Source of the DNA: Hypomyces perniciosus | Taxonomy: Eukaryota > Ascomycota > Sordariomycetes > Hypocreales > Hypocreaceae | Direction: 5' to 3' | DNA length: 64,000 nucleotides | NCBI GenBank assembly: GCA_008477525.1 | Contig: SPDT01000003.1 | Location: 1-64,000 of the forward strand | Shown here: positions 9,269 through 50,727 of the stretch, one piece after another | How positions within the stretch are numbered: position 1 is the stretch's first letter | How the letters are laid out: each line of letters opens with the position of its first letter | The notes under the pieces: model-generated | Databases searched by the model: none | Told to the model about the DNA's origin: nothing | The model's input: only the letters and a program-made list of their open reading frames with translations | Program-made: the position numbers and the translations under genes

Positions 9269-10645
9269 ATGAATAAAAATATTTTCACATCGGCCTTGGC
9301 CTTAAAAAATAGAATATTAAAGTTATATACTTTAAATTCTGAACCTACTTGAAATAGTAGTAAACTATTTCTTCCACAAGCTCTAGAAAAAAACCCTACT
9401 TTGTTTTATCAATGATTAGCGGGATTTATAGACGGTGAAGGAAATTTCCAAATTAATCCTTTAAAAGGGAAAAATGGTGAAATAGTTAATTTTTCTTTTA
9501 TGTTTAATATCAATCTTCATATTGATGACATAGACGTTTTAAAAACTATAGCTAAAATATTAGGGATAGGGTTAGTTACTTATTCGGATATTGCAAATTC
9601 AAATAAATATGTGTGTTCTTATAGAATAAATAAGCAATCTGAGTTATCTAAATTAATTCAAATTTTAAATTCTTCACCCTTAAATGGTGTAAAATATTTG
9701 GATTTTTTAGATTTTACTAAAGCTTATGATTTATATTTTAATAGACCTCGTCGTAATATAACACCCGAAATAATTGAAGAGATATTAAAACTCAAAAATG
9801 GAATGAATAGACAAAGAACTAATTTCAATAGACCAATTCCGATTAATATTACAGATTACTGATTACTAGGTTTAATTGAAGGTGAAGGGTCTTTCCATTT
9901 AATTAGATCGAGATTAGTACCTGTGTTTGCTATAAAAATGGTTTTAGATCAAGAACCTCTTATGATAGCAATTAAAAAATATTTAATAGAAAGATTAGGT
10001 TTTGACAAATATTCCCTATTTAAATTAAATAGTTCAGAATTAATAAGCATTAATTATGTACCCCCTAAGGGAAATTCTAAACCCCAAATTTTCATAGGGA
10101 TTGAAAATGTTAGAATTTTATATAATTACTTTTTACCTTATTTAAAAAATTTAACTTTCCTAACTAAAAAGTTCAAAGATTTTAATGACCTAATGTTAAT
10201 TTGTTATGTAATTTATCATAAAATATATAGAGATGAGGAGATAAAAGATTTAATAATAAAATTAAGTAATAATATGAATAGTTTTAGATTATCTAGTTAT
10301 AAAGGTGAAAAAGATATTATTACTGCTTCAGATATAGATAGATTATTATCGGCCGACCCTTTCTCTGTACCTTTAAATGATGGGAGATTATTAAATTTAA
10401 TGACCAATAAATTAGATAGTAGTATAAAAGGAGGTTCGGTGTTTGAAATAATTAATCAAGATTCAAATAAAGTTATTTTAGCTAATAGTTTAGAAGAGTG
10501 TGCTAGTATTATAGGAGTCTCAAGGAATCTTGTATCAAGTGCTTTCTCTTCACCAGCTGATGCATCTTTTATTTCTGAAATATCTATTGATAAATATAAT
10601 ATAAAAAGAATAGGTGTTTTTTTTGGAGCATATGCATTAGTGTAG
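9269..10645 (+). CDS. LAGLIDADG endonuclease with NUMOD1 domain, downstream of rnl
   Basis: 458 codons in code 4, one TGA (9860) read as Trp. Motif 1 is WLAGFIDGEGNF at residues 49-60. The dimer-helix segment ends in GMNRQRTNF. Motif 2 is WLLGLIEGEGSF near residue 199. A C-terminal NUMOD1-like unit (LEECASIIGVSRNLV) spans about residues 405-430. It stands between rnl and trnT rather than inside a recognisable gene, like the other HEGs of this cluster. Confidence 0.85.
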
Positions 10646-10794
10646 ATGCTAGGATCGATATATGATTAAATAACTTTTTATAGAAGGGTATAATTTTCTA
10701 GTCCAGAAAAATTAGTAAACGATTAATACATAAAAGGTGAGAATAAATAGAACTGGTTGATATAATCAATTTCAACCTTATTCAAGCCTAAAGC

Positions 10795-10831
10795 CTGGTT
10801 AGCATAGATAGTAATGCAATTGTTTTGTACT
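10795..10831 (+). pseudogene. 5' half of tRNA-Thr
   Basis: GGTTAGCATAGATAGTAATG.. matches complete trnT at 10939 through the anticodon (TTGTTTTGTA) and then stops. About 45 bases of upstream flank are also similar between the two copies. Confidence 0.7.
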
Positions 10832-10938
10832 CAAAGAAGCAATAAGTAAACTTTTAGTGCATGCATGCTACGCAGCAGCACATAAAAGAGTGAACAGGTC
10901 TGGTTTATATAACCAACTTCAGTCTTATTTTGAGCTAA

Positions 10939-11012
10939 AGCTCGGTTAGCATAGTTAGTCAATGCAATTGTTTTGTAACCAATTGACGGGAGTGCGAATC
11001 TCCCACTGGGCT
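10939..11012 (+). tRNA. tRNA-Thr (TGT)
   Basis: Acceptor AGCTCGG / CTGGGCT pairs; anticodon TGT in loop TTTGTAA; T-arm GGGAG-TGCGAAT-CTCCC. Confidence 0.9.
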
Positions 11013-11061
11013 ATTTTATTGAGTAGATATTACTATATAAAACTATAAGAGTAAGAGATCT

Positions 11062-11363
11062 TATTCAAGTGGATATTGCTAAACTATTAAGTGAACCTTC
11101 AAATTACGAAATTAAGGACTAGCATAGCTTGCGCTACAAGGTATGCGCACAGAATTTTTATAAAATCTTTAAATAGATTTAAAGGTTCACCTACTTCCAA
11201 AATGGTTCAATTATTAGATGCTACTAGTGAAGATATTATGAATACATTTACTTCTATAGCTGAAAGTGCCAAATTTTTAGGTGGACTTCCTCAGACTACT
11301 CGAATTAGAGTACAAAAAAATACTCGTTTTTTATTTAGACCCCCTGCGGGTGAGGTAAATTAG
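11062..11363 (+). pseudogene. C-terminal remnant of a HEG (NUMOD1 region) split by a palindrome
   Basis: Translates as AKLLSEPSNYEIKD, then after a GC-rich insertion RIFIKSLNRFKG..SIAESAKFLG. This mirrors the C-terminus of the HEG at 12439-13854 (LLKGPSNYEM..GRIFIKSLNKY..CAEFLG). The catalytic part is gone. The insert at 11118-11151 brings a stop codon. Confidence 0.75.
11121..11150. repeat. GC-rich palindromic repeat, 30-bp family
   Basis: Reverse complement of the 30-mers at 24461-24490 and 25001-25030, differing only at the outermost base. Core TAGCTTGCGCTACAAGG. Here it interrupts a HEG remnant. Confidence 0.85.
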
Positions 11364-11457
11364 TTTATCTTAAATTTGTAGAATAAAATTAGAATACCGT
11401 ATTTAGCGGATTAATATTAGCGACACTTGCAGTGCGATACTTGCAGTGAGCTAATTA

Positions 11458-11530
11458 GGATTAGTAGTCAAGCGGTTACGACATAGCTCTTTCAATGCTA
11501 CCATCGCAGGTTCGAATCCTGCCTAGTCTA
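11458..11530 (+). tRNA. tRNA-Glu (TTC)
   Basis: Acceptor GGATTAG / CTAGTCT pairs with G-T pairs; anticodon TTC; T-arm GCAGG-TTCGAAT-CCTGC. Confidence 0.88.
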
Positions 11531-11531
11531 A

Positions 11532-11600
11532 GCGGGTTAGTGTAATAGAAACATATTCGGTTCATGCCCGAAAGATATAGGTGCAAGTCCTGTATCCGCG
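11532..11600 (+). tRNA. tRNA-Met (CAT)
   Basis: Anticodon CAT in stem CGG-TTCATGC-CCG; acceptor GCGGG.. / ..CCGC. One of three complete CAT tRNAs in the cluster, as usual (initiator and elongators). Confidence 0.85.
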
Positions 11601-11740
11601 TTTTTAGCTTAATATAAATATATTAAATGAATATTTATATTATTATATGATTTAACAATCTCATATTCATAGTTCATTTTTAGATCTTTTAGTGATCTAA
11701 AAACATTGCTTTATAAACAGTGTAACTATTATTTATCGCT

Positions 11741-11768
11741 TGCTAGGCATGCGCAAGCTAGCCTACAC
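11741..11768. repeat. GC-rich palindromic repeat (GGCATGCGCAAGCTAGCC type)
   Basis: Shares GCATGCGCAAGCTAGCCTAC with 33081-33100 and in reverse complement with 29661 and 29763. It lies just before the trnM 5' half. Confidence 0.8.
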
Positions 11769-11772
11769 AAAA

Positions 11773-11811
11773 AGGGTTATAGCTTAATCGGTAAAGCATG
11801 CTGCTCATAAC
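11773..11811 (+). pseudogene. 5' half of a split tRNA-Met
   Basis: AGGGTTATAGCTTAATCGG.. to CTCATAAC, ending just after the CAT anticodon. Its acceptor AGGGTTA pairs perfectly (one G-T) with TAGCCCT at 14037-14043. The two halves therefore once formed one tRNA now separated by 2.2 kb. Confidence 0.8.
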
Positions 11812-12438
11812 CTCTCGGCCCAGGATTAGATCCTTGGGCCTAGGCCGAAGGGCAGTAAAAATAAATCCTTTTGCAAGAAAGAATAGAATTAGTACCCCCT
11901 GCGGGTGAGGGAAATTCCATTTTTGTCTTTGGTTAGATATATTATGTCTAAATTTTATTAATAATAAACCCTATTAATATTACTTTACTCACATGAACAG
12001 TTAGACATGATAGTAAAGATAAATCAATTTTCGATAGTTATCGATTTTGGTGTATCTTTTAACAACCAAAAGACGGAAGGACTGCGTGAACCACCTTGGC
12101 TTAAGTTAATCAGAAAGTAAAGGAGGAAGTAAAGCTCTATAGAGCTAAATGGAATGTATAGCGCACACATATATCTAGTAAGATTCTTATAAAGAAAAAT
12201 CTTCAGCTGGAACCTAATCAGCTTTAACCTTGGGAAGGTACTCAATGGTGAAGAGGGCAGAACTGTGTGACCTTTATTTCGAATTATATAATATATTAAT
12301 GGAAATAATAAGTATAATAGAAAAAAGGGATGCAGGAATAAGCCCTTACAAAGTATAGCGGTGTGAGCCCTTGCATGAGTAAGGTTATACGACAAGTAAG
12401 TTACATAGCGAGTGAACAACGCAAAATAGAATATATAA
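11812..12438. other. Non-coding leader of the trnM-splitting element
   Basis: No ORF. Holds GGAAGGACTGCGTGAA (12075-12090) and GAGTGAACAAC (12410-12420). Similar words occur before the GIY-YIG gene in trnF (14523, 14595) and near 16014-16048. Possibly a degenerate ribozyme or structured leader. It also contains CCCCCTGCGGGTGAGG (11894-11909), also found at 11341. Confidence 0.45.
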
Positions 12439-13854
12439 ATGAAAATGAAAACAAACTTTAAAAATAGTCAATTATTATTAAAACGTTATAGCTTATGAGC
12501 TTTTAACCTGTTATGTAGCTCAGGTATAGCATTACATAAAAATAGATTTATTCATTCAACTCCTTCTAGTAGAACTATAGATAATTCTAATTCACAATTT
12601 ATTATTTCTGAAGAACAACAAATTGTTTTATCTGGTGATTTTATAGAATGATTTAGAGGTTTCACAGATGCCGAAGGCTGCTTCTTGGTAGTTAAAAATG
12701 ATAATACTTTCGCTTTTAGATTTATAATAAAATTACACGTTGATGATGTAAACGCACTAAATTTTATTAAAGACTCTTTAGGAGGTATAGGAAATGTAAC
12801 CACTGAGGGAACAGTAGCTTACTATAAAGTAACATCTCAAAAGGGAATAAAATTAATTATAGAAATTTTTGCTAAATATCCTTTAAACTCAAGCAAACAT
12901 CTAGATTACTTAGCTTTCCGTAGAGCTTATGAGCTTTATACTTCATCTAAGAATAAAACTCCAGAACTAGCTAAAGAAATAAGTAAGTTTAAAGATAGTA
13001 TGAACAGAAAGAGAACTAATTTTGATATGGAAAAATCACACAAAATACTTATAACAGACAACTGGTTACTTGGTTTCGTGGAAGGAGATGGTAGTTTTTG
13101 TGTAGCTAAAAAGGGTTGAATTTTAACTTTTGCTCTTGGACAGAAAGGGAACTTAGGTTTAATAGAGGCAATTCAAAATTATTTACTTAATTTGTGTGTG
13201 CTACGCACGCGTGTCTCTAATAAAAATTCTTCAACAACTGATCCTACAGAAATTCAAGATGAAAGCAGAAATTTTATTTACATTACAAAATCTAGCAGAA
13301 ATACCTCATCCGAGTTAATTTACGTTTTAATTGTTAAAGACAAGGAATATATAGAAAATACACTTATTCCATATTTTGACTCTCTTATTTTTCATTCTAA
13401 AAAAGAATTAGATTATTTAGATTGAAAATCTATAGGAGAACTAAAGAAATTTGGGTTACATTATCTTCCAGAAGGGGTTGAACTAATAGAACTTATTTTA
13501 AGTCAAATGAATGAAAATAGATTATCTGATAGAGGTGTTAATCCTGTAGAAAGAAACTTTATTCAATCAGAAGTAATGAAATTATTAAAAGGACCCTCTA
13601 ACTACGAAATGAGAGAAGGTAGAATCTTTATTAAGTCGTTAAATAAATACCACTCTGGTAGAACAAAAACTAAAGTAGAACTTAAAGATCAACAAGACTT
13701 AGTTTTTAAAACTTTTGATTCTATGAATAAATGTGCTGAATTCTTAGGAGTTAGTACACACACAGTTTCCAAGAGAATGAAAACTAATTCACCTATTAGT
13801 TATAACAATAAAGAATATTTCATTTATGCTAGCTTACTTAACACAAAATCTTAA
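12439..13854 (+). CDS. LAGLIDADG endonuclease with NUMOD1 domain, inserted in trnM
   Basis: 471 codons in code 4 from ATG to TAA. Motif 1 is [11 protein letters not shown] near residue 76; motif 2 is [12 protein letters not shown] near residue 206; C-terminal NUMOD1-like part CAEFLGVSTHTVSKRM near residue 434. It sits inside a split tRNA-Met together with a complete tRNA-Met copy, suggesting homing to a tRNA gene. A short palindrome (GTGCTACGCACGCG, 13198) lies in frame within it. Close to the HEG remnant at 11062-11363. Confidence 0.88.
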
Positions 13855-13914
13855 TTTAATATCTTATAATTATAATAATATATGTTATTTGTTTGTATTA
13901 AACACAAATAAAAG

Positions 13915-13985
13915 AGGCTGTAACTTAGCTGGTAAAGTGCGCTGCTCATAACAGTGCTATCAAGTGTTCGAATCACTTCAGCCTT
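13915..13985 (+). tRNA. tRNA-Met (CAT), element-borne copy
   Basis: Complete cloverleaf: acceptor AGGCTGT / TCAGCCT, anticodon stem CGCTG-CTCATAA-CAGTG, T-arm AAGTG-TTCGAAT-CACTT. It lies between the HEG and the 3' half of the split trnM, and it differs clearly from those halves. Confidence 0.9.
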
Positions 13986-14018
13986 AAATAATAACTTTTT
14001 ATTACAAATGTAGGGGAA

Positions 14019-14043
14019 TAAGTGTTCAAGTCACTTTAGCCCT
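14019..14043 (+). pseudogene. 3' half of the split tRNA-Met
   Basis: T-arm AAGTG-TTCAAGT-CACTT followed by acceptor TAGCCCT, complementary to the 5' half at 11773. Confidence 0.78.
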
Positions 14044-14048
14044 AAACT

Positions 14049-14080
14049 GCCTGAGTGCTGGAATAGGTAGACAGTGGTCA
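14049..14080 (+). pseudogene. 5' fragment of a tRNA-Leu-like gene
   Basis: GCCTGAGTGCTGGAATAGGT.. resembles the first third of a tRNA-Leu (D-loop region GGAATAGGTAGAC) and stops directly before complete trnL. Confidence 0.5.
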
Positions 14081-14082
14081 GA

Positions 14083-14165
14083 GTCCGAATGGTGAAATTG
14101 GCAAACACAACAAACTTAAGCTTTGTAGACTTTTAGTCTTGAAGGTTCAAGTCCTTCTTCGGATA
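14083..14165 (+). tRNA. tRNA-Leu (TAA)
   Basis: Type II tRNA; acceptor GTCCGAA / TTCGGAT; anticodon TAA (CAAACT-TAA-GCTTTG); T-arm GAAGG-TTCAAGT-CCTTC. Confidence 0.9.
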
Positions 14166-14250
14166 GCTCAGCTTTATAAAATTATTATATAACTAAAAAA
14201 TAAATATATATTTTTTGAGGTAATCTCTGCACAAGCTTGCTTCTAACGAA

Positions 14251-14297
14251 GCACAAGGTGTTCGAGTCACTCCATAATCCCCGCTAGGGGGATACGC
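14251..14297 (+). repeat. tRNA 3' half plus palindrome, copied unit
   Basis: GTGTTCGAGTCACTCC followed by TAATCCCCGCTAGGGGGATA recurs at 16816-16857, where it is the end of a duplicated trnQ. The pair moved together. Confidence 0.7.
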
Positions 14298-14311
14298 GAT
14301 AGCGTAAAAAG

Positions 14312-14381
14312 GGGATATAGTTTAATTGGTAAAACTGCGATTTTGCATATCGTTAATTCAGGGTCGGATCCTGATATCTCC
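14312..14381 (+). tRNA. tRNA-Ala (TGC)
   Basis: Acceptor GGGATAT / ATATCTC; anticodon TGC in stem GCGA..TCGT; T-arm around GTCGGAT. Confidence 0.88.
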
Positions 14382-14387
14382 AAATAA

Positions 14388-14426
14388 GCTCGTGAAGCTC
14401 AATTGGTCGAGCAGAACGTTGAAGTT
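14388..14426 (+). pseudogene. 5' half of a split tRNA-Phe
   Basis: GCTCGTGAAGCTCAATTGGT.. ends just after anticodon GAA (AACGTTGAAGTT). The remaining 3' half is at 15524-15546. Confidence 0.78.
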
Positions 14427-14631
14427 GGATCTTATAGTGAACTAAAATAGTTCAATTTAAATCCATAATTAATGAAGGTCAGATAACTCTATTATACCAA
14501 ATTAAGGATTAAATGAAGACCCAAAGGACTGCAATCTATAATTTATAAAGAGAGCTTCGTATTGGTTTTTAACACCATGGCTCATAAATTCGAAAGAGTG
14601 AACAAGGGCATAACTTTTTAAACTTTAAACA

Positions 14632-15483
14632 ATGAAAAACACAATGAATAATAACATAGTTCCCATAAAAACATATTCTAATGCAGAAAGGGACAAGTTT
14701 ATTCTTTATAAGGATAATAATAATAAATCAGGTATATACCGTTGAAATAATTTAATTACAAATAAAAGTTATATAGGTTCAGCTAAATCAATTAGAGGTA
14801 GATTTAGCATTTATTATTCTACAAATTCTGTTCAGCGTAAACTAGCAGAAGGATCTAGTGCTATTTACAGTGCCATACTAAAATACGGCTATGGAAATTT
14901 TAGTATAGATATTCTAGAATATTGTGATATAAGTACCTTAATAGAAAGAGAGCAATATTATATTGATTTATTGGAACCTGAGTATAATATATTAAAAATA
15001 GCTTATTCTCTACTCCCTAGCTTGCGCATGGGAGACGAAGGGGCTAAACATACTGAAATTACCAAATCATGTATAGGGTTAAAGTCTCTGGGACGTAAAC
15101 ATACAGAAGAGGCTAAATTAAAGATGAGGGAAATAGCTGTATTACGTAAAGGTGAAGAAACTTCTTTTTATGGTAAAAATCATTCTCCTGAAAGCCTGTT
15201 AAAAATGTCAATGAATAGATCTATTCAAGTGAAAGTTCTAGACACAGTATTAAATGAGGAGACAGTATTTTTAGGTAATAAAGAAGCCGCCGAATTTTTA
15301 AATGTAGGATTATCTACATTAGTTAGATATAAAAAATTAAATAAATTAATGAAAGAAAGATACCTAGTATCTAACATAAGCTCATGTAACTCAATTGGTA
15401 GAGTGAAATATTGAAGCTATTTTTGTTGTAAGTTCAAGTCTTACCGTGGGCATAAAAAATATTTAAAGAAAAAAGTGGTCTAA
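14632..15483 (+). CDS. GIY-YIG endonuclease inserted in trnF
   Basis: 283 codons in code 4. GIY-YIG block SGIYRWNNLITNKSYIGSA lies near residues 29-47. EYCDISTLIEREQYYIDLLEP follows, then NUMOD3-like repeats (LGRKHTEEAKLKM, FYGKNHSPESLLKM) and a NUMOD1-like end (NKEAAEFLNVGLSTLVRY). A 35-bp palindromic repeat (15004-15038) sits in frame and adds [11 protein letters not shown]. The frame passes straight through the complete trnF before its first non-TGA stop at 15481. The functional end may be earlier. Confidence 0.87.
15004..15038. repeat. In-frame palindromic repeat, copy 1
   Basis: The 35 bases ATTCTCTACTCCCTAGCTTG.. (stem CTCCC/GGGAG) are identical to 18514-18548 in an unrelated LAGLIDADG gene, in the same reading frame. 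Confidence 0.9.
15380..15452 (+). tRNA. tRNA-Phe (GAA), element-borne copy
   Basis: Acceptor GCTCATG / CGTGGGC pairs; anticodon GAA; T-arm GTAAG-TTCAAGT-CTTAC. Fully overlapped by the code-4 reading frame of the GIY-YIG gene. Confidence 0.88.
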
Positions 15484-15523
15484 ATAATTATAGTATATAG
15501 AATTAAGAGATTTGAACGACTAA

Positions 15524-15546
15524 GTTGTAAGTTCAAGTCTTACCGT
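15524..15546 (+). pseudogene. 3' half of the split tRNA-Phe
   Basis: Repeats the T-arm of complete trnF (GTTGTAAGTTCAAGTCTTAC) and breaks at CCGT, where a palindrome (ATCCCTGCTTTGCAGGGAT, 15547) is inserted in place of the acceptor end. Confidence 0.75.
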
Positions 15547-15572
15547 ATCCCTGCTTTGCAGGGATTAGGGCA

Positions 15573-15645
15573 GGGACTTTAGTATAATGGTGAATGCGTA
15601 TGACTTTTAATCATTAAAATGTAGGTTCGAATCCTACAAGTCCTA
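15573..15645 (+). tRNA. tRNA-Lys (TTT)
   Basis: Acceptor GGGACTT / AAGTCCT; anticodon TTT (ATGA-CTTTTAA-TCAT); T-arm GTAGG-TTCGAAT-CCTAC. Confidence 0.92.
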
Positions 15646-15743
15646 CTATAGAAAATAGAAATATTTATTATTGCTATTATTTCAATGTAACTATATAAAT
15701 ATATAATTATATTATATTATATTTAAACTTTCTAGCGATATGA

Positions 15744-15827
15744 AGGGTAATGATGGAATTGGCAGACATAAATAGTTTAGGTCTATTGGATAGTAATATC
15801 TTACCCGTTCAAGTCGGGTTTACCTTA
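15744..15827 (+). tRNA. tRNA-Leu (TAG)
   Basis: Type II tRNA; acceptor AGGGTAA / TTACCTT; anticodon TAG (AATAG-TTTAGGT-CTATT); T-arm CCCG-TTCAAGT-CGGG. Confidence 0.9.
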
Positions 15828-16671
15828 AATATATGGATTACGGTATTAGTAATAAGTTTAACTTAATCCATATATTATATAAATCTTAGCTATAAGTAAA
15901 TAGCTTGCACTAGATCAAATATATCTGATACTAATCGGATCTATATGGACTCCTAATTTGTTTAACTGGGCCCTATGAACAAACGAAGGAAAGGATTAGA
16001 ATCGCCAAGGCCTGAAGGACTGCGGAGGCTAGGTTACGTGTGAACAAAAGGCATTTATATATAAACACAAAAATGACTGCGCTAGCTAGAAATTAACACT
16101 TAAAAATACTATAAACATAGTAAACATTGGATTTAAACAAGGCTTAGGTGCTACTCCTGCTAATAAACACAGATATTATTCGTGCTTCATATGCAGTACA
16201 AAATGATAATCACAATCTAAATAATAATATAAATATAATACCCGTAGCCCTATATCTTCGATTAGGGGCTAGAAAGTTATCTTAATCCTTATCAAAATAG
16301 AAATGTGATTTATCCCTCTGGCTAACGCTTCGCCTAAAAATACAGGACTCGGTTCTGTTTATAGGCACGCACAGAAATTAGAGGCCTGCGCAGCGCGCAG
16401 TACCCCCTGTGGGTTGCATGCATGCAGCAGCAGCAGCAGGGGAAGATAATAATAATAAACCTGGTATTTATCTAATCCCTACTCTCTGTGGGTTGCAGCG
16501 CAAGCTAAAGCTAGAGATACGGCAGGCTTAGAATATTACATGAATAAAAATATATTATTAAAAAATACGTATTTAATTATTAAGCTGATAAGAATAAAAT
16601 ATTAATTAATATACATTGAAGTAAACATTTTATTATTTTGACTTTTTATAGTTCATTTTGAACATAAGATA
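15828..16671. other. Long non-coding stretch rich in palindromes
   Basis: About 840 bases without a gene. Contains TGAAGGACTGCGGAGG (16013) and GTGTGAACAAAAG (16038), words shared with the leaders of tRNA-splitting HEGs, plus GC-rich inserts near 16380-16510. Probably a graveyard of the same elements. Confidence 0.5.
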
Positions 16672-16739
16672 TGCTGTTGACAATAGGTAAGTCATAAATT
16701 TTTGGTATTTACTATTGAGTGTTCGAATCACTCCAGCAT
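16672..16739 (+). tRNA. tRNA-Gln (TTG)
   Basis: Anticodon TTG (loop TTTTGGT); acceptor TGCTG.. / ..CAGCA; T-arm GAGTG-TTCGAAT-CACTC. Confidence 0.88.
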
Positions 16740-16776
16740 AATTATCTATATTTATATAATGTTATATGACACTAAG

Positions 16777-16834
16777 CGACTGATAGGTAAGTCATAAATT
16801 TTTGGTATTTACTATAGAGTGTTCGAATCACTCC
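16777..16834 (+). pseudogene. Partial duplicate of tRNA-Gln
   Basis: Repeats GATAGGTAAGTCATAAATTT through the T-arm of trnQ almost exactly, but lacks the acceptor arms. It is followed directly by the palindrome TAATCCCCGCTAGGGGGATA. Confidence 0.78.
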
Positions 16835-16870
16835 TAATCCCCGCTAGGGGGATACGCTTCGCTAATAAAA

Positions 16871-16945
16871 GGAAGATATAGTTCAATAGGTAGAGCGACT
16901 GTATGTGGCACAGTAAGTTCCCTGTTCGAGTCAGGGTATCCTCCC
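16871..16945 (+). tRNA. tRNA-His (GTG)
   Basis: Anticodon GTG (GACTGT-ATGTGGC-ACAGT); acceptor GGAAGAT / ATCCTCC with one mismatch; T-arm CCCTG-TTCGAGT-CAGGG. Confidence 0.88.
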
Positions 16946-16950
16946 ATAAA

Positions 16951-17023
16951 AGCCTAAGTAGTTTAACGGTTAAAACCTTAATTTCATACATTAAAGATGA
17001 GAGTTCGATTCCCTCCTCAGGCT
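16951..17023 (+). tRNA. tRNA-Met (CAT)
   Basis: Acceptor AGCCTAAG / CTCAGGCT; anticodon CAT (TTAA-TTTCATA-CATTAA); T-arm GAGAG-TTCGATT-CCCTC. Ends 45 bases before nad2. Confidence 0.88.
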
Positions 17024-17068
17024 GTTGAAATATATACCAACAATACTTAATATAATATAATTTATCCA

Positions 17069-20000
17069 ATGATAATAATATCTATTTTATCTCTTTTACT
17101 TTCTAACGCCGTCAATGTAAGACGTGATATATCAATTCTATATAATAGAATTGCGATATTAATATTAATTTATTGTATTTTAAACGATATATCCTCTTTA
17201 ACTGTAGTAACTAAAGGTATAGGTCTACATGGAGGTTTATTGTTAATTACAAATATTACACAAATATTCCATATTTTCTTATTTATAGTGAGTATATTAA
17301 TATTAACATTAACTAGTTTCTATCCTAGAAAAGTGTGAGTATCAGAATATTCATCTTTAAAAGATTTAGTGTTATATAAATTTGTATATTATAATACTAA
17401 AATTATAAATAAAATGGGTGAACAATTTAAAATAATAGAATACCCTGAACAACAGCTTGGGAGGCTGTAGTATTTATGGGGGAAAACTGCCAAATTCCGG
17501 GGAAGCCCTAAAGCTTTTGATACCAAATCTGGTTGAATTTTACCGTGGTGGATGAATTAATTACTCATGTATGGTAACAAGTCAAAAGATTCTTGAAAAA
17601 GGAATGGGTAATCGCGGATCTAAGTCAAATATAGGTAACACTTTATTTGTAAAAGAGCAACGAGTAGACGGTAGTTGCATAGGGTGAACAACTCGTCCTA
17701 TGTTAAGGTATACTCTTAGAGGGTTCGAAAGAATTACCTGAGCTGGAATCCCTTCTAACCAAATTCTAAATAAACAACTATATTCAACAACTAAAGTTTC
17801 AAAAAATCTTATTGAATCTGAATTATATACTAATAACGAAGATAGTTTTAGTTTAAACCCTTGATTTGTAACTGGGTTTACAGATGGAGATGGTTCATTT
17901 TCTGTTTCTATTGCTAAAAAAAAATCAGGTACAGGGTGAAAGATTCAACCTGTGTTTACTATAGGGTTAGATTCAAAAGATTTAGATATTTTAGTTCAAA
18001 TTAAAACTTTTTTTAAAGCAGGTAAAATCTATACTAGTAAAAGAGGTATAATTTATTATACTGTAGGTTCAACAAAAGATATAATAAAATATATCCTACC
18101 TCATTTTGACAAGTATCCTTTATTTTCTCTTAAATTAAAAGATTATTTAGTGTTTAAAGAGATAGTTCTTCTTATGGAAAAGGGGGAACATAATACCCTA
18201 CCTGGTCTATTAAAAATCTTCTCTTTAAGAGCTATTTTAAACAAAGGACTACCGGAGATAGTAAAAACTGAATTTCCGGATATAAATCCTGCTACTGTAC
18301 CAGAGTTTAAGATATCCCCTATCTTAAATCCTCATTGGTTATCAGGATTTATAACTGCAGAAGGGTCTTTCTTTATTTCTCTCTATCCTAATGAGGAAAG
18401 AAAAGCCGGATATGCAGTAAGTCTAATATTTAGTTTAAGTCAACACATTAAAGATCTAGAATTACTAGAATTAATTGTTAAATACTTGGCATGTGGTACA
18501 GTTAGAAAACCTAATTCTCTACTCCCTAGCTTGCGCATGGGAGACGAATCAGCTGAATTAGTTATCACTAAATCAGCGGACATTAACCTAAAATTAATTC
18601 CTTTCTTATCTAAATATACTCTTTCTGGGGTAAAGTTATTAGACTTCGAAAGATTTAAAAAAGCATCTCTTTTAATAGAAAATAAAGTGCACTTAACTTC
18701 AGAGGGAATTGTATTAATAAAAGCTATTAAAGATGCAATGTATAATAGAGAATTGTAAGGTTAATTTTACTAACCCCCATAACTTCGTAAGGGGGTACGA
18801 TTTAGTTAAATTAAAGGTTATAATTTAAAGTTGTAATCTTAAGTTAAAAGTTAATTATTTAGAATTTGTATGATAAATCCAGTTACCACGTTAATATTAT
18901 TATTTATAATTACAGGTGCTATATTCTTAATGTCAACTAACGATTTAGTTTCTATTTTCCTTGCTATAGAATTACAAAGTTATGGTTTATACATACTAAG
19001 TACTATATATAGAAATTCAGAATTATCAACTACAGGTGGATTAATGTACTTCTTATTAGGGGGATTAAGTTCTTGTTTTATTTTATTAGGTACAGGTTTA
19101 ATATACGCTAACTCAGGAAGTACTAGTCTAGATGGTTTATACATTATAACTAGTATAAGCGATATAAGTTCTGTAGATTTATGATACAAACCTTATTACA
19201 TAAATCTTTCTTTAGTAATATTTACTATAGGATTCTTATTTAAAGTAAGTGCAGCGCCTTTCCATTTCTGATCACCTAAAAAAGGACTTGGGAAATCCTT
19301 TACCGTTGGGTGTAAACTATCAAATTCCGGAAAACCCCTAGAACTTCAAGTACCAAGCTATATTCGAAAGGATATAAGTGGATGAACTAATCACTCATGT
19401 ATGGTAACAAGCTTGAAGGCTTCTGAAAGGAACGTGGGCAATCGCGGATCTAAGTCAGTAATATGTGAAAGTATTACTGTAAAAGAGCAACGAGTAAACG
19501 GTAGTTGATGTGGTATTAATTTACCACATTTAAGATGTACTCTAATGGGTTTCGAAAGAAATTATCAAGTTAAAATCCCTTCTAATCAAATTATTCAAAG
19601 ACAACTTTATTCTACTGTATCTAACTTGGACAATACTGCTAGTAAACTTCCTCAAGTAAATGAACCTTGATTTATATCAGGATTTTATGATGCTGAAGGA
19701 TGCTTTCTTGTTATAGTCCGTAAATCACCAAAAAGCAAACTAGGTTGACAAATAGAGGCTAATTTTACAATTAATCTTCATATTAGAGATCTAAATCTTT
19801 TAAAACTTATTCAAACTTACTTTGGGGTAGGAAGAATAGGTAAAGAAAGAAATGGTTGTTGTGATTTTACAGTAGGTTCTCTAGATCAAATAATAACAAA
19901 AGTAATACCTCATTTTGATAAATATCCCTTAAAAACTAAGAAATATTCTGATTATCTATTATTTAAAGAAGTAGTTATGATGATGCAACGTGGGGAACAT

Positions 20001-25090: not shown

Positions 25091-28000
25091 ATGAAAAATA
25101 TATTAAATTCATTTATATATATGGATGCACCTGTTGCTTGAGGTATATACTTTCAAGATAGTGCTACTCCACAAATGGAAGGATTAGTAGAATTACATGA
25201 CAACATCATGTATTACTTAGTAATAATTTTATTTGGCGTAGGATGAGTACTTTTCTCTATAATAAGAAATTTTGCAGCAAAAAGATCACCTATTTCACAT
25301 AAATACTTAAACCATGGTAAAGAAGTGCCTTTTCAAAAGTGTTTTAAGTTTAATACTTTAAATAATCTAAATTATATACGTTTTTACAGTACAACGCCTT
25401 CTTCAGAAGTTAATAGTATAAAGTTTTACGAAGATGCTTATTCTATGAAAAAATCAATTATAAAAGATAATAAAAATAAATCCGGAATTTACAAATGGAC
25501 CAATAAACTAACAAATGATATATACATTGGGCAATCAGTAGATTTAGCCAAAAGATTTATAAAATATTTTAATATTAGTTATTTAAGAAATAGAAATACT
25601 CTTGTAATAAGTAGAGCTTTAATTAAATACGGATATTCTAATTTTTCATTAGAGATTTTAGAATATTGTGATACAGCTAATTTAACAGAAAGAGAACAAT
25701 ATTATTTTGATAAATTAAATCCTAAGTACAATACATTAAAAATAGCTGGTAGTTCTTTAGGTCATAAACTTACTGAAGAAACTAAAACAAAAATTAGTAA
25801 ATCTTTAAAAGGAATTTATGTTAAAGAAAAATCTGCTTTATATGGTCGTACTCATTCTGAAGAAACTAAAGCATTGATGGCTTTAAAAAAATCTGTCCGC
25901 AGGCTAGAAAATAATCCTTTATTTGGTAAAACTCATAGTGAAGAAACTAAAGAGTTAATGAGACAAAAAGCTTTAGGTAGAAAACATTCTGAAGAAACTC
26001 TATTAAAAATGAGTGCTAATAGAGGTTATCTTGTTTACATACATGAAAAATGTGATTCAGAAGGATTTAAATTAATTGGTAGTTTTGTTTCAATAAGAAG
26101 AGCAGCTAAATTTTTAGGAATTAGTAGCAATACTGTAAGACTGTATATAAATTCAGGTCAAATATTTAAAGACAGATATAAATTTACTGGTGGAACTCCA
26201 AAATAAACTTAAAAAAACTATGAAAAAAATTCCACTATATGCTGGAAACTCCTAAAGCCTTTAAGTACTATAAAGTTAATAAACATATACTTTATCAGTG
26301 ACAACCTTAAAGGATGTACAATGGATTATCAGCAGGAAACCACCCAGGTATTAAATACCTTAGCGGGATCCTCAGAGACTACACGTGGAAACCTTATATG
26401 TAAGTATACATATATGGTAAGATATAGTCCAGTTAAGTATGAAAGTACTTATGTTTTTGACATTAATAGAATTAATCTGAACTATAACACCAGCTGTTAT
26501 ATTAATACTTATAGCATTCCCATCTTTCAAATTATTGTATTTAATGGACGAAGTTAACGACCCTTCAATGTCTATTATAGCTGAAGGACATCAGTGATAT
26601 TGAAGTTACCAATATCCAGATTTCATAGATTCTAACGAAGAATTTATAGAATTTGATTCTTATATAGTACCTGATTCAGACTTAGAAGAAGGTGGATTAA
26701 GAATGTTAGAAGTTGATAACAGAGTAATAGTTCCTGAATTAACACATATTAGATTCGTTATAACATCTGGAGATGTTATACATTCTTTCGCTTGTCCTTC
26801 TTTAGGTATAAAATGTGACGCATATCCTGGTAGACTAAATCAAGTATCTGTATTTATTAACAGAGAAGGTGTATTCTATGGTCTTATCGAACAATGGCCA
26901 AAACTGTAGTGAACCTATGGTTATAAATCATCAAATTGCGGGAAACCCCTAAAGGAATCTTAACCAAGTAAGTATGGTAACATAACTTATGGCACAGGTA
27001 ATGACTCGTGGTATGGTAAAATCAAGATTTATTATTCAATGGGCAATCCGCAGCCAAGTACCAAATATAAAATATTTGGTATGCAGTTCATCGACTAGAC
27101 GGTGGTTGGTATTATTAGTTTTAATAATGCTTAAGGTATAGTCAGCCCCCACCTGAAAGGGTGCAGAAAAATATGAAGAATATTCATATTTTTTGTTAAA
27201 TAGATATATATTAATTCGTTAATTATATTTAGGGATCTCTACAATAGTTTGCTAAACTTAATTTAATGTAAAAATAAATGAATACAAACACAGAAAGCAC
27301 TTGTCTTTCATATGAAAGACTATTGTAGTATTTGCATGATACAATTAGTAAAAGTGTTTTTGATAATCACTTCATGTTCGATAAACGTATTGGATTAAGT
27401 TCTATAGCTGCTGTATCTTTAACTAGATGTTTTAGTACAAGTAGATCTATTAATTCAATTAGACCTTTGGTAAATAACCCAGAGTCTTTAGCGTTAGAGC
27501 ATATCAATAGTGGAAAACCTACTACTTCGACAGTTATCAATAAAATATTATTAAATCAAAATTTATCAGTTACTGACTCGAAATTACAAGAATTATTAAA
27601 AGTTAAAGGTGTTGAAGTGGATCTTCCAATATCAACATCGGAAAATCATAAACTTTTAGATGAATTAACAGGTAAATCTAAATATAAAGGTTTCTCTGGT
27701 GTATATATCTTTATACATAAAAATACAGATCATAAATACGTAGGTTCATCTAATTTACTAAGACGTAGAATGGATTACTATTTCAAAGGAGATTTTCCAT
27801 TAGCGGGTAAATTTTTACCTTTACTTCACAAAGAAGGGCTAAAAGCTTTTAAATTAGTAATTTTTAAATTAGATAGTAATAAATTTAGTAATCAAGACTC
27901 TTTAATTTTAGAACAGTATTATTTATTAAATAAAGAATTTAACTTGAATACATTAAGAGTTGTTAATGCAGGATCATCTAAAGGGGATACTGTATATGTT

Positions 28001-28905
28001 TATGATCTAACATGTAGTACTCTTTATTATCATGCTAAATCTAGAATTGAATTAAAAAGAGTATTAAAAATACATACTGAAACTAGTAAAAAATATGTAG
28101 ATTCTAAAATACCATATCTGAATAAATTCTTACTATTAAGCTATCCTATTCCTACTGCTTTAACAAGCAATATTCCCATAGAAAATTTAGTAGGTATGAT
28201 GCAAAAAGAAAGACAAGATATGTATACATTAGGAACTCGTAGAAGTATTTCAGTAGAATTAGAAATTAAAGAAGGAAATACATTTGTAGATTCTTGAGGT
28301 CATACTTTTAATTTTGATTCTTTAACGTCTTGTATTGAGTATTTAAGAGAATTAGGTTTAACTATTAAAAGAGACACTCTTACTAAATATATAAAAGATG
28401 AAAAAGTGTTTCATAATTTCTTATGTAAATACTCAGATAATGCTTTACCTGATAATTTTGAAGAAGTAGGATTAATTATTGATGAATATAAAAAATTAAA
28501 AGTAGATACAGACTTAGATTTATTAAAAGTTAATAAAAAAAATAAATCCATATTAGTAAAAGGAGAAAATTTTTGTTGCTCCGCACCACAAGAATTTGAA
28601 AGTATTACAGATACAATTAAATACTTTGATACTTTAAATATAAAATTAGATAGAAAATCTTTAAATACTCGTTTAAAAGACGGTAAAATTTATAAAGATT
28701 ATTATTTTGCTTATAAATAACCAGATAAAAGTTCAAAATATTTTCTTCTCTTAATATACTAAGAAAAAATCTATCGATTACATTAAATAAATGTAGAGAG
28801 AATTCGCAGTGTTCAGAAATATGTGGAATACTTCATAGTTCAATGCCTATAGTTATAGAATCTGTAAATATAGACAAATTTGTTCATTGACTTTATAATG
28901 CTTAA
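25091..28905 (+). CDS. cox2, cytochrome c oxidase subunit II (3 exons), left copy
   Basis: Exons 25091-25318, 26460-26882, 28807-28905, all in phase, 249 residues. Starts [20 protein letters not shown]. It carries the CuA ligand set in the C-terminal domain ([17 protein letters not shown].. and [13 protein letters not shown]) and the EGHQWYWSYQYPDF motif. Subunit II accepts electrons from cytochrome c. Both introns are group I, follow a U and end in G, and each carries a GIY-YIG gene. A full identical copy is at 50728-54542. Confidence 0.97.
25319..26206 (+). CDS. GIY-YIG endonuclease in cox2 intron 1, left copy
   Basis: Intron 25319-26459. The ORF is fused in frame to cox2 exon 1. GIY-YIG block [19 protein letters not shown] about 55 residues in; four NUMOD3-like repeats with the word HSEET; a C-terminal NUMOD1-like helix pair ([18 protein letters not shown]). 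The group I core lies after the ORF (TCCTCAGAGACTACACGT, 26369). Confidence 0.92.
   Translation, partial: KEVPFQKCFKFNTLNNLNYIRFYSTTPSSEVNSIKFYEDAYSMKKSIIKDNKNKSGIYKWTNKLTNDIYIGQSVDLAKRFIKYFNISYLRNRNTLVISRALIKYGYSNFSLEILEYCDTANLTEREQYYFDKLNPKYNTLKIAGSSLGHKLTEETKTKISKSLKGIYVKEKSALYGRTHSEETKALMALKKSVRRLENNPLFGKTHSEETKELMRQKALGRKHSEETLLKMSANRGYLVYIHEKCDSEGFKLIGSFVSIRRAAKFLGISSNTVRLYINSGQIFKDRYKFTGGTPK
27332..28720 (+). CDS. GIY-YIG-type endonuclease in cox2 intron 2, left copy
   Basis: Intron 26883-28806. Here the group I core comes before the ORF (26930-27150). The frame of 462 codons opens at 27332 (TTG) after a TAG; the first ATG is at 27374. GIY-YIG variant [20 protein letters not shown] near residue 120, followed by [21 protein letters not shown]. 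The C-terminal half is long and divergent, with only weak resemblance to NUMOD1 units. Confidence 0.85.
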
Positions 28906-28957
28906 TTTATAACAAATTATTATTAGTAAGAACATATTTATTCATTTAGTGGATAAA

Positions 28958-29030
28958 AGAGGTATTAGTTTAATGGTAAAACTTGATGCTACGGACATCA
29001 CAATTGTAGTTCGAATCTATAATGCCTCTA
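28958..29030 (+). tRNA. tRNA-Arg (ACG), left copy
   Basis: Acceptor AGAGGTA / TGCCTCT; anticodon ACG (TGATG-CTACGGA-CATCA); T-arm TGTAG-TTCGAAT-CTATA. It lies between cox2 and nad4L as in many Pezizomycotina. Confidence 0.92.
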
Positions 29031-29152
29031 GTATAGTCATTTATATAGTAACTGTACTAGTATACGTAAAAAAACACATATTTAAAATTAAATTTAAATG
29101 TACGTATATAATCATAATTCTGAATAATTCGATGTATATATTAGATTAAAAT

Positions 29153-30358
29153 ATGAGTTTAACTTTAGTACTTTTTTTAATAGGAATTTTAGGATTCGTA
29201 TTTAACAGAAAAAATATAATATTAATGCTTATTTCTATAGAAATAATGCTATTATCTATAACATTCTTAATATTGGTTAGTTCTATTAATTTAGATGATA
29301 TAATAGGACAAACATATGCTATATACATTATAGTAGTTGCTGGTGCAGAATCTGCCATAGGTTTAGCTATTTTAGTAGCTTTTTATAGACTTTCGTCTCT
29401 TAAATCAAACCGTCTATCCTTTAGTTCTTGTAAATTACCTGTAAGATTCGTAAATAGAACTCCTGTAGGGATAAGAAATTATTCTACAGTGTGTTCTTCT
29501 AATTGTAAAAATAATTCAATTGATCCTTGATTTATTACTATTCAAAATTCTAAAACTAAAAGCGGTATAGCTGCTTCATTGCGTTTTTCTATAGCTCAAG
29601 ATTCAAGAGATTTATCTTTATTAGAAAGCTTTGAAAATTTCTTTGGATGTGGATATGTGTAGGCTAGCTTACGCATGCCTACTAAATATAAAAACCGTTC
29701 GGTTTGTGAATTTATCGTTACAAAAATTGATCATGTAGTTAATAATATAATCCCTTTTTTCTTGGCTAGCTTGCGCATGCCACCAACATAGTATAAGGGG
29801 ATCAAAATACTCGGACTTCTTAGATTTTAAACGTGCTGCTTTAATTATTAAGAATAAAGAGCATTTAAAAGAAGATGGCTTGAAACAAATTTTACAATTA
29901 AAAAATCAAATTACAGGTTTGAATAATAAGACTAAAAATAATCATGGTGATGATTAAGGCTTAAGAGAAATTAGGTCAAAAAAGGTGGAGTGAACCTTCA
30001 TCTAGTCTTTATATTTTAAAATATAAAGGCAAAACCTTCAAATTGCGGGAAACTCTTAAAGACAAATCTACCAAGTTAATACAGTAATGTAATTAATGGA
30101 ACAGGTAATGACTCGTTGTAAGGTAAAAACGATTTGTATAAAGAAATGCAATAGATAATCCGCAGCCAAGCGCCAATAATTGGTGTGCAGTTCATCGACT
30201 AAATGGAGGTTGGTAAATAATTATTATATAAATTATTTGCTTAAGATATAGTCAGGCATAACTTAAAGGTTATGGAATTACCCAGCCATCCTAAGGGAAT
30301 TTAATTCCTATGGTAAAGGGAAAAACGAAGAGGAAGTATTGCAATAGAATATAAATAA
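29153..30358 (+). CDS. nad4L, NADH dehydrogenase subunit 4L (2 exons), left copy
   Basis: Exons 29153-29391 and 30328-30358, 89 residues ([20 protein letters not shown].. to ..GSIAIEYK). Its stop TAA overlaps the nad5 ATG by one base, the classic fungal nad4L/nad5 overlap. The group I intron has a broken HEG and a well-formed core (GCGGGAAACTC at 30045; AATCCGCAGCCAAG at 30148). Confidence 0.96.
29659..29682. repeat. GC-rich palindrome TAGGCTAGCTTACGCATGCC
   Basis: Same family as 29761, 33078 and 11741. Introduces a stop in the nad4L intron HEG. Confidence 0.85.
29761..29783. repeat. GC-rich palindrome TTGGCTAGCTTGCGCATGCC
   Basis: Second insertion in the same HEG, 100 bases on, differing by one base in its core from the first. 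Confidence 0.85.
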
Positions 30359-30956
30359 TGTATTTAAGTATAATTATATTACCTTTATTAGGGTCTATAG
30401 TATCCGGATTTTTTGGTAGAAAAGTCGGTGTGACAGGTAGTCGTATCTTAGGTTGTTTAAGTATAATAACAACAACAATATTAGCTATAGTTAGCTTTTT
30501 TGAAGTAGGATTTAATAATAATCCTATATCAATTAACCTATTTAAATGATTAGATAGTGAATCATTTAATATGGTATGAAACTTCCAATTTGATAGTTTA
30601 ACAGTCTCTATGTTAATACCTGTATTAGTGATTAGTTCTTTAGTTCACTTTTACTCTATTGGATATATGAGTCATGATCCTCACAACCAAAGATTTTTTA
30701 GTTATTTAAGTTTATTCACTTTTATGATGATTATCTTAGTAACTGGTAATAATTATCTATTAATGTTTGTAGGATGAGAAGGTGTTGGAGTTTGTTCATA
30801 CCTTTTAGTTAGTTTCTGATTTACTAGAATTGCAGCTAACCAAAGTTCTTTATCAGCATTTTTAACTAATAGAGTAGGGGATGCTTTCTTAACAATAGGA
30901 ATGTTTGTAATATTATGATCTTTAGGTAAAGAAAAAATTCTAAAGTTTTCACAACA

Positions 30957-31943
30957 ATGCATAAAAATCAAAATACTAGCTTTGTACTGAAAGGCTTACA
31001 TAAAACAAATATTTTACGGAGTACTTCTCAATTTAATCGTTTATCTCATGCTCAAGTTAGAAATTATTCTTCTTCTCCTTCTTCTTCACTTGCACCATAT
31101 TTAGCTGGTTTGATAGAAGGTGATGGATATATAGCTGTACATGATAAAAATACACAAAAAAAAGAGTACAGACCTAAAATTATTATTGCTTTTAATATAC
31201 ATGATAAACCTTTAGCTGATAAATTATCTACTGATTTAAATGTAGGTAAAGTAATTAGTAGACCTAACGCAGGACATGTGTTATTACAAATTTTAGCTAA
31301 AGAAGAAGTATTAAAAATAATGAATTTAATTAACGGTCATATGCGTACACCTAAAATAGAAGCATTACATAGAGCTATTCACTGAATAAATGAAAAAGAT
31401 AATAGTTCTATACCGTTATTAGGTTTAGATTTGTCTTCTTTAGAAAGTAATAGCTGATTAGCAGGATTTACAGATGCCGATGGATGTTTTGGTATAACTG
31501 TTTACGACCGTAAGAAAAACGGAGTATTTTTAAGAACAAGTGTTCAAACTTCTTTCCGTATAGAAGTAAAACAAAATTATTCTAGAGAGGTTACTTTAGA
31601 ACAAGGGGGATCTAGTTTTTTTAAGATTATGAGTGATATTGCTGCCTTTTTTACAGTAAGTTTATATTCAAGAACTAGAAAAACTGAAGATAAAGAATTT
31701 TATGCTTTTGCTGCAGTTGCCCATAATTCAAGAAGTCATGAAATAGTTCGTAAATATTTTGAAAAATATCCTTTATATTCTTCTAAATATCTAGCTTTTA
31801 AGGATTGATGTCTTGTTCAAGATCTACATAAAGGATCTTTAAGTAAAGATAACCTAGAAAGAATAAAATCCATTAAAAATCAGTTTAACAGTAAGCGAAT
31901 AGTATTTGATTTTTCACATTTGAATTCTTTACAATTTAAATAA
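30957..31943 (+). CDS. LAGLIDADG endonuclease in nad5 intron 1, left copy
   Basis: Intron 30928-32301. From ATG 30957, 328 codons. Motif 1 [12 protein letters not shown] near residue 50; motif 2 [13 protein letters not shown] near residue 167; ends in the typical [10 protein letters not shown] tail. The group I core follows (TCCTCAGAGACTACACGT at 32162). Confidence 0.92.
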
Positions 31944-32433
31944 ATTGCCGTGGGAGATAGTAATATCTCTCTTATTATATAACTATATGCGGGAAACCCC
32001 TAAAGTCTTTTTATATGTCATTTGTGGAAACTTTTATATATAGAATGCGTACACAAAGCATAAAAATTAAAAAGAATAGAATCCTATCGGGCAGAGGCGT
32101 AGGAAGGATGAAAATGGGCAATCCGCAGGAAACTGATAATAATAATAAATTATTTAATGGATCCTCAGAGACTACACGTTATACCCCTTTATCAACAATG
32201 TAGAGTAGTACATCTATTCTTGGCGCAGCGTCGCTCCTATTTCATAGTAGAAAAAGGGTGAAGATATAGTCCGGTTATAACTGAAAGGTTATATGTAAAC
32301 GAATTTAGATTATAGTACAGTATTTTCATTAGCTCCATATATTAACGAAAATATAATAACAATAATAGGTATATGTTTATTAATAGGTGCTATGGCTAAA
32401 AGTTCTCAAGTAGGACTTCACATATGATTACCT

Positions 32434-50480: not shown

Positions 50481-50602
50481 ATTTTAATCTAATATATACA
50501 TCGAATTATTCAGAATTATGATTATATACGTACATTTAAATTTAATTTTAAATATGTGTTTTTTTACGTATACTAGTACAGTTACTATATAAATGACTAT
50601 AC

Positions 50603-50675
50603 TAGAGGCATTATAGATTCGAACTACAATTGTGATGTCCGTAGCATCAAGTTTTACCATTAAACTAATACCTCT
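50603..50675 (-). tRNA. tRNA-Arg (ACG), right copy
   Basis: Identical to 28958-29030. Confidence 0.92.
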
Positions 50676-50727
50676 TTTATCCACTAAATGAATAAATATG
50701 TTCTTACTAATAATAATTTGTTATAAA

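Follow-up and report, generated by a model that had tools for sequence, protein, structure and literature searches.

A split mitochondrial trnM gene in Hypomyces perniciosus suggests a homing element that carries a replacement tRNA gene

Introduction

How can a selfish gene come to lie inside an essential tRNA gene, and how would the host survive its arrival? The question is raised by a stretch of DNA from the fungus Hypomyces perniciosus, the first 64,000 nucleotides (64 kb; hereafter the window) of the 4,186,231-bp contig SPDT01000003.1 (C8) of assembly GCA_008477525.1, in which a methionine tRNA gene, trnM, is divided into two halves that flank a homing endonuclease gene (HEG) and a second, intact trnM. 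The window is fungal mitochondrial DNA (genetic code 4), and its tRNA genes, located with ARAGORN, stand in the order T-E-M-M-L-A-F-K-L-Q-H-M, which is that of the Hypocreales cluster TEMMLAFKLQHM, tandem trnM genes included, as given in PMC4964425.

In our judgement the locus was probably produced by a homing element, made up of an intron-less LAGLIDADG gene and a complete, diverged trnM, that split the resident trnM at its anticodon region. The enzyme would bind the anticodon arm of trnM and cut, and the break would be repaired by copying from a mitochondrial DNA that bears the element, for example after hyphal fusion, with the result that a leader, the HEG and a tRNA gene would be inserted into trnM. 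The resident gene would be destroyed, the imported trnM would serve translation and keep the host alive, and the imported copy, being diverged in the anticodon arm, may no longer be a target. If this is true, gene-replacing homing elements extend from protein genes to tRNA genes, a selfish gene has invaded, with no intron to help it, an RNA gene that is essential and unspliceable, and the element acts as a natural break-and-rescue drive. Mitochondrial tRNA genes would then be replaceable from outside, and caution would be due where they are used in phylogeny and annotation.

In this study, we examine the two trnM halves, the intact copy and the HEG, and compare them with other tRNA genes of the same mitochondrial genome and with published systems. 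The genome-wide comparisons refer to a mitochondrial unit of 75.5 kb, taken on both strands; a second mitochondrial contig, C17 (145,291 bp), was covered beyond base 103,100 through search matches alone. The leader, the HEGs and the tRNA genes and halves given below by window position at trnT, trnM, trnF and trnL(UAG) lie on the + strand.

The two halves and the intact copy of trnM

The trnM(CAU) 5' half (11773-11811) is 39 nucleotides (nt) long and ends at position 38/39, the far edge of the anticodon loop. It aligns without gaps to positions 1-39 of the intact trnM with 28/39 identities, a score above that of all 40 shuffled queries, and is the best non-self match of the intact gene in the 75.5-kb unit (the runner-up, at 25/39, is trnI together with its own half). 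The 3' half (14020-14044) consists of a T-arm whose stem is paired 5/5, an acceptor strand (14037-14043) and a discriminator base (14044). Its acceptor strand pairs 7/7 with that of the 5' half (11773-11779), one pair being G-U, so that the full pairing described in an initial annotation of this DNA holds. Only 2 of the 264 T-arm-like sites in the unit pair 7/7 with the acceptor strand of the 5' half, the proposed 3' half included, and from the intact trnM to the next gene it is the sole T-arm-like site that does so. When aligned by eye, acceptor pairs 2 and 7 differ on both sides between the halves and the intact trnM (G-C versus A-T, and A-T versus G-C), and for this reason the two halves resemble, to judge from their sequence, pieces of a single gene and not scraps of the intact copy.

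The intact trnM(CAU), the proposed replacement, occupies 13914-13986 (ARAGORN; Rfam, 58 bits). The 5' side of its anticodon arm reads ...AAGTGCGCTGCTCAT, as against ...AAGCATGCTGCTCAT in the 5' half. The order 5' half, LAGLIDADG gene, intact trnM, 3' half is thus as first annotated, with the halves flanking a HEG inserted within its host gene; the limits of the 5' half and of the HEG needed no change, and those of the 3' half and of the intact trnM were corrected to the positions given here.

The 3' half begins at the T-stem, and the 3' strand of the anticodon stem and the variable loop, about 10 nt, are gone. As they stand, the halves therefore cannot form a complete tRNA, and both look dead. 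Were they instead a functional split or trans-spliced tRNA, the 7/7 pairing of the acceptor strands would be expected; the missing 3' strand of the anticodon stem and the presence of an intact trnM in between reduce this explanation to a negligible probability. Splicing of the halves, in trans or as the exons of an intron, had been named in the initial annotation as an outcome that would overturn its reading, and is unlikely given that the tRNA has lost about 10 nt and that no intron was recognized.

The LAGLIDADG gene

The gene between the halves (12439-13854) encodes a 471-amino acid (aa) LAGLIDADG homing endonuclease of the I-PanMI/I-OnuI-like type. Two LAGLIDADG_1 stretches are found in the protein (Pfam, E 2e-31); the additional NUMOD1 domain that had been annotated is present as a sub-threshold hint alone (E 0.086). 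Both catalytic motifs, GFTDAEGCF and GFVEGDGSF, are present, and residues D77/A78/E79 and E215/G216/D217 are invariant across 19 aligned sequences. Among PDB sequences the protein matches I-PanMI best and other I-OnuI-type enzymes next, and an AlphaFold model (mean pLDDT 69) matches I-OnuI, I-PanMI and I-SmaMI, with a best E of 1e-15. The trnM locus occurs three times in the assembly, once in the window and twice on contig C17, and the full HEG frame is kept in two of the three copies; the third has three 1-nt indels in the gene, possibly sequencing errors.

The closest relative of the protein is 77% identical, that of Hypomyces aurantius 73%, and those of Fusarium 57-59%. The Fusarium group includes a 536-aa protein from F. 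oxysporum (P0011), which, by its length, domain and species, would be the LAGLIDADG orf536 that sits between two trnM genes in Fusarium (PMC5604515). Searches of viral and of bacterial and archaeal contigs for relatives of the locus returned distant HEG relatives (best 35%, on L014) or bare pattern matches, and a search of plasmids and phages returned distant HEG matches only. No tRNA gene was found on the scanned stretches of L014, L049 and L050.

The leader and the intron question

The HEG is preceded by a leader of 627 nt (11812-12438) in which a GC-rich hairpin is followed by an AT-rich region. It had been described as structured, but its portion 11930-12438 folds only modestly better than shuffled sequences (z -2.14, with 1 of 100 shuffles at least as good). 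One alternative is that a decayed or unrecognized intron, of group I or group II, lies in the anticodon loop of trnM and subsequently gained a second trnM. The position is in keeping with this, the anticodon loop being the typical site of group I tRNA introns; so is the break in trnL(UAG) described below, which follows a U, as in group I introns, and so are two short motifs that the leaders have in common and that are confined to the tRNA cluster. However, no Rfam intron model matched the leader or the locus at E values up to 5 (11700-14100) or the wider region at E values up to 10 (10600-17100), with the reservation that these models may miss unusual introns. No conserved intron RNA core was found, and the flanks would not join to an intact tRNA, since they are short by about 10 nt at trnM and by 4 loop nt at trnL(UAG) and splicing would not restore either molecule. 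We regard an intron as very improbable.

The two motifs, AGGACTGC (12078, 14525 and 16016) and GAGTGAACA (10888, 12410 and 14596), occur at three sites each per mitochondrial unit, all on the + strand and all in the tRNA cluster, either ahead of HEGs or in gaps without a HEG. They were considered as a shared leader signal, an idea that was dropped on finding that the site at trnT belongs to a duplicate of sequence lying upstream of trnT. A GC-rich palindrome (CCCCCTGCGGGTGAGG and similar) is repeated at 11895-11910, 11340-11355 and 16403-16414, and one of the C17 copies has 8 extra nt at its place in the trnM leader.

Empty and occupied copies of trnL(UAG)

An insertion into a tRNA gene is seen in the assembly at trnL(UAG), which is present in three copies. 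The gene is intact, and the site thus empty, in the window (15744-15827) and in one copy on C17; in the other C17 copy it is occupied by 5,413 bp (C17:91320-96732) that replace window positions 15779-15782, inside the anticodon loop. The junctions read ...AATAGTTT, insert, CTATTGG..., with the loss of AGGT (4 nt), and the insert is found once in the assembly. Because AGGT would not come back by simple excision, the empty gene is probably the ancestral state.

The insert contains a GIY-YIG/NUMOD1 frame, in which NUMOD1 scores 29.4 bits against a cut-off of 22.8, and three tRNA genes: one reading Thr(CGU) (57 bits), one Leu(AAG) (41.4 bits, all of its pairs being standard) and one Leu(CAG) (ARAGORN). 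It also holds a 507-aa open reading frame (ORF) with a zinc ribbon of the 3CxxC type (24.1 bits against 23; L026:1863-3386, C17:95063-96586), for which five relatives were found, the named ones from Entrophospora. ARAGORN reported no Leu(UAG) gene on the scanned stretches of the occupied copy. CUN codons are in use, with 4 in a 165-codon stretch of cox3 and 4 in a 114-codon stretch that matches a proton-pumping NADH dehydrogenase subunit, and so some Leu(CUN) tRNA is required.

The several frames that accompany the HEG in this insert lend some colour to another origin, in which plasmid-like DNA with captured tRNA genes integrates at tRNA genes, by way of a mitochondrial plasmid or template switching, and the HEGs are passengers. 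A further hint in this direction is an antisense fragment between trnI and its 5' half that reads YYTDTDS and resembles a plasmid-type DNA polymerase. Against it, no polymerase family was detected in the four frames of the trnL insert that were scanned (frames of 203 aa and 74 aa fell outside the scan), and the reading frames at trnM and trnF are HEGs. A plasmid origin therefore seems distinctly unlikely.

The same arrangement at other tRNA genes

The recurrence of half genes was examined by masking the 25 tRNA genes of the unit and searching the remainder with two queries per gene, its initial 40 nt and its final 36 nt. The controls were small, comprising 40 shuffles for the 5' halves and 12 shuffles per query in the run of 50 queries. 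A 5' half of the same isotype lies upstream of 4 of the 25 genes (T, M2, F and I) at distances of 147 to 2138 nt. All four halves break off within or next to the anticodon loop (index 33-39), and each scores above all 40 of its shuffled queries; were the ends uniform over 22-65, the probability of four such ends would be about 6e-4, a figure calculated post hoc. In the larger run, 11 of the 50 queries exceeded the best of their own 12 shuffles by more than 2. They include the halves themselves (T 5', M2 5' and 3', F 5' and I 5'), partial duplicates (F 3' and both ends of Q) and G 3', which matches the trnF fragment described below; the matches of Lg 5' and N 5' lie at distant places on the minus strand and were taken as chance. 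A search for 3' halves at trnT and trnI found none.

At trnF, a 5' half (14388-14424) that ends in the anticodon loop is followed by a GIY-YIG/NUMOD3 HEG (14632-15483), whose frame continues through the intact trnF(GAA) (15380-15452; ARAGORN). Two unrelated nuclease families, GIY-YIG at trnF and LAGLIDADG at trnM, thus occupy the same position. Among the seven closest GIY-YIG relatives that were inspected, three (P0121, P0122 and P0126) have a C-terminus, NKLM or NKKHM, that corresponds to read-in to the start of trnF when the protein is back-read by eye; since these termini read like a trnF start, the gene and trnF may be linked in other genomes too. A trnF 3' fragment (15524-15546) was considered as the mate of the 5' half and rejected, as its 23 nt repeat a stretch of the intact gene exactly, which makes it a partial duplicate.

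The cases at trnT and trnI are equivocal and weaker than those at trnM and trnF. The trnT 5' half (10792-10829) ends in the anticodon loop and scores 58, against a maximum of 32 in 40 shuffles; the intact trnT(UGU) follows at 10939-11013 (ARAGORN), and the gap between trnT and trnE holds the C-terminal remnant of another LAGLIDADG gene (11054-11383). The remnant resembles the protein P0064, with identities of 95% over 22 aa, 89% over 62 aa and 90% over 10 aa. At trnI, the order is the 5' half, the antisense polymerase-like fragment and the intact trnI (L024:1435-1868, equivalent to C17:74835-75268).

Half genes could also arise by ordinary duplication and decay, with extra trnM copies made in tandem or by recombination, two of them decaying to opposite halves, and a HEG landing in the spacer by chance. 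Tandem trnM genes do occur in the Hypocreales cluster (PMC4964425, PMC8837645), and other partial tRNA copies are present in the cluster studied here, namely the acceptor-less trnQ, the 23-nt trnF duplicate and the duplicated block upstream of trnT. Chance decay does not readily explain why the 5' halves end at index 33-39 in all four cases, why the two trnM halves fit each other, why two HEG families are found in the same position, or why the trnL insertion interrupts a single gene. We consider duplication and decay a rather unlikely source of the locus as a whole.

Relation to known elements and published comparisons

The related fungus Ilyonectria destructans (Nectriaceae) has both the trnM and the trnF site without a HEG: its genes trnM (2372-2444), trnM (2445-2516) and trnE (2518-2589) are almost contiguous, with no HEG between them, and its trnF lies 8 nt from trnA (PMC8837645). 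Because such HEG-free sites exist, the half genes at trnM and trnF are probably derived. Two ordinary tandem trnM genes in a relative, produced by simple duplication, had been named beforehand as a finding that would tell against a homing element; the pair is there in I. destructans (PMC8837645), but it looks ancestral and would not leave two pairing halves outside an intact gene.

In Fusarium, the large variable (LV) region comprises the same tRNA cluster. As described in PMC5604515, PMC7285627 and PMC11633160, its variants carry HEGs between two trnM genes (variant 2), between trnT and trnE (variant 3) and between trnL(UAG) and trnQ (both); an additional trnL(AAG) is present in variant 2 of F. 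oxysporum, three variant 3 strains have an extra trnQ, and one variant 3 strain has a zf-3CxxC ORF. Variants 2 and 3, together with an insert in F. begoniae, therefore resemble the present cluster in having HEGs in the same gaps, an extra trnL(AAG) and a zf-3CxxC ORF, and differ from it, in a comparison made by description, in that the descriptions consulted give no half tRNAs or tRNA replacement. HEG-made breaks have been suggested to have rearranged the Fusarium tRNA cluster, the origin of whose LV regions was called unclear (PMC5604515), and homing into a target in a tRNA gap was proposed for a Fusarium insert beside trnM (PMC7285627).

The initial annotation knew of no named class of mobile element of this kind, which was too strong. 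The mobile ORFs of Allomyces macrogynus atp6 and of Glomus atp6, atp9, cox2 and nad3 likewise place a LAGLIDADG or GIY-YIG HEG in an essential mitochondrial gene and leave the displaced native 3' end downstream; they carry a diverged replacement part, the role proposed here for the intact trnM (PMC3630166). In those genes the host's 5' part and the imported 3' end are fused into a hybrid protein gene, whereas at trnM an entire tRNA gene is present and nothing is joined to the resident 5' half as a 3' part. An endonuclease specific for the anticodon region of tRNA-fMet is also known (from a title cited in PMC3984707); it shares its type of target with the element proposed here and, unlike that element, is borne by a group I intron.

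In the tRNA-fMet intron, splicing restores the tRNA and no replacement tRNA is known to be carried. Three further systems bear comparison. Genomic islands integrate in tRNA genes by means of a site-specific recombinase, so that function is restored and a fragment displaced; a recombinase and att sites are features of such islands, and no dedicated search for them was made here. SegB of phage T4 is reportedly, to go by the title of Brok-Volchanskaya 2008, a HEG that drives the inheritance of a tRNA gene region, and it is not known to sit within a tRNA gene or to replace one. Synthetic homing-rescue gene drives, which are engineered, disrupt an essential gene while supplying a recoded version of it as rescue. 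In the open-access literature searched, we recognized no description of tRNA genes split and replaced by HEGs. HEG-borne replacement gene ends are already known, and what was not met with in that literature is the combination of a full replacement tRNA, two dead halves and no recognized intron.

The earlier proposal of a homing element with a rescue copy is thus partly supported, by the recurrence of the arrangement, the unrelated HEG at trnF, the empty and occupied copies of trnL(UAG), the HEG-free trnM pair of Ilyonectria (PMC8837645) and the LAGLIDADG ORF between two trnM genes in Fusarium. Several observations weigh on the other side. All three copies of the trnM locus in the assembly are occupied, so that there is no empty trnM copy, and about 10 nt of the split gene are gone. 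The 3' fragment at trnF does not complete the 5' half there; at trnT, the remnant of a HEG comes after the intact gene and the block in front of that gene has itself been duplicated, a picture that agrees with partial tandem duplication; and the trnI spacer has the polymerase-like fragment and no HEG. In the trnL insert, the GIY-YIG domain scores 22.2 bits, just below the Pfam cut-off of 22.6, and its frame has no ATG, GTG or TTG start ahead of the domain, for which reasons the nuclease may be dead. That insertion is seen in one of three copies, and the assembly shows structural problems; the occupied copy may be an assembly chimera, although a chimera would not easily put both junctions in one 7-nt loop. 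Finally, the HEGs of Fusarium were reported to show no presence/absence variation within an LV type and judged not active, and homing was rejected as the origin of the LV variants (PMC11633160).

A homing element that brings its own trnM nevertheless appears to us the probable explanation of the locus. It is possible, if short of probable, that the tRNA clusters of fungal mitochondria harbour a whole class of homing elements that rescue their hosts. Endonucleases from at least two unrelated families would target tRNA anticodon loops, and every element would bring an entire tRNA gene as replacement, in some cases with an anticodon other than the one lost (Leu AAG for UAG). Repeated invasions would then exchange the tRNA set and create the LV-region variants, so far unexplained, of Fusarium and its kin, and homing-rescue gene drives would have a counterpart in nature. 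The non-homologous tRNA sets of the Fusarium LV regions would also gain an origin that can be tested.

Assembly setting and neighbouring fragments

Up to about 54.8 kb, the window is mostly more than 99% identical to contig C17. The joining of mitochondrial DNA to the 4.19-Mb contig C8 reflects either a mis-join or the transfer, very recently, of a large piece into the nuclear genome. The window also contains a large inverted repeat (25091-33387 and 46246-54542) with mirrored tRNA-Arg, group I intron and ORFs; it may be an assembly fold-back, because both arms match a single stretch of C17 (C17:25362-39569).

Further tRNA-like fragments lie among the genes of the cluster. A second copy of trnQ (16783-16834) lacks both acceptor strands and is otherwise nearly identical to trnQ. 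On either side of trnL(UAA), inspection by eye shows a D-arm-like fragment resembling tRNA-Leu before the gene (14047-14075) and a T-arm-like fragment after it (14258-14331), and the flank of the latter shares 83% identity with the flank of the trnQ copy.

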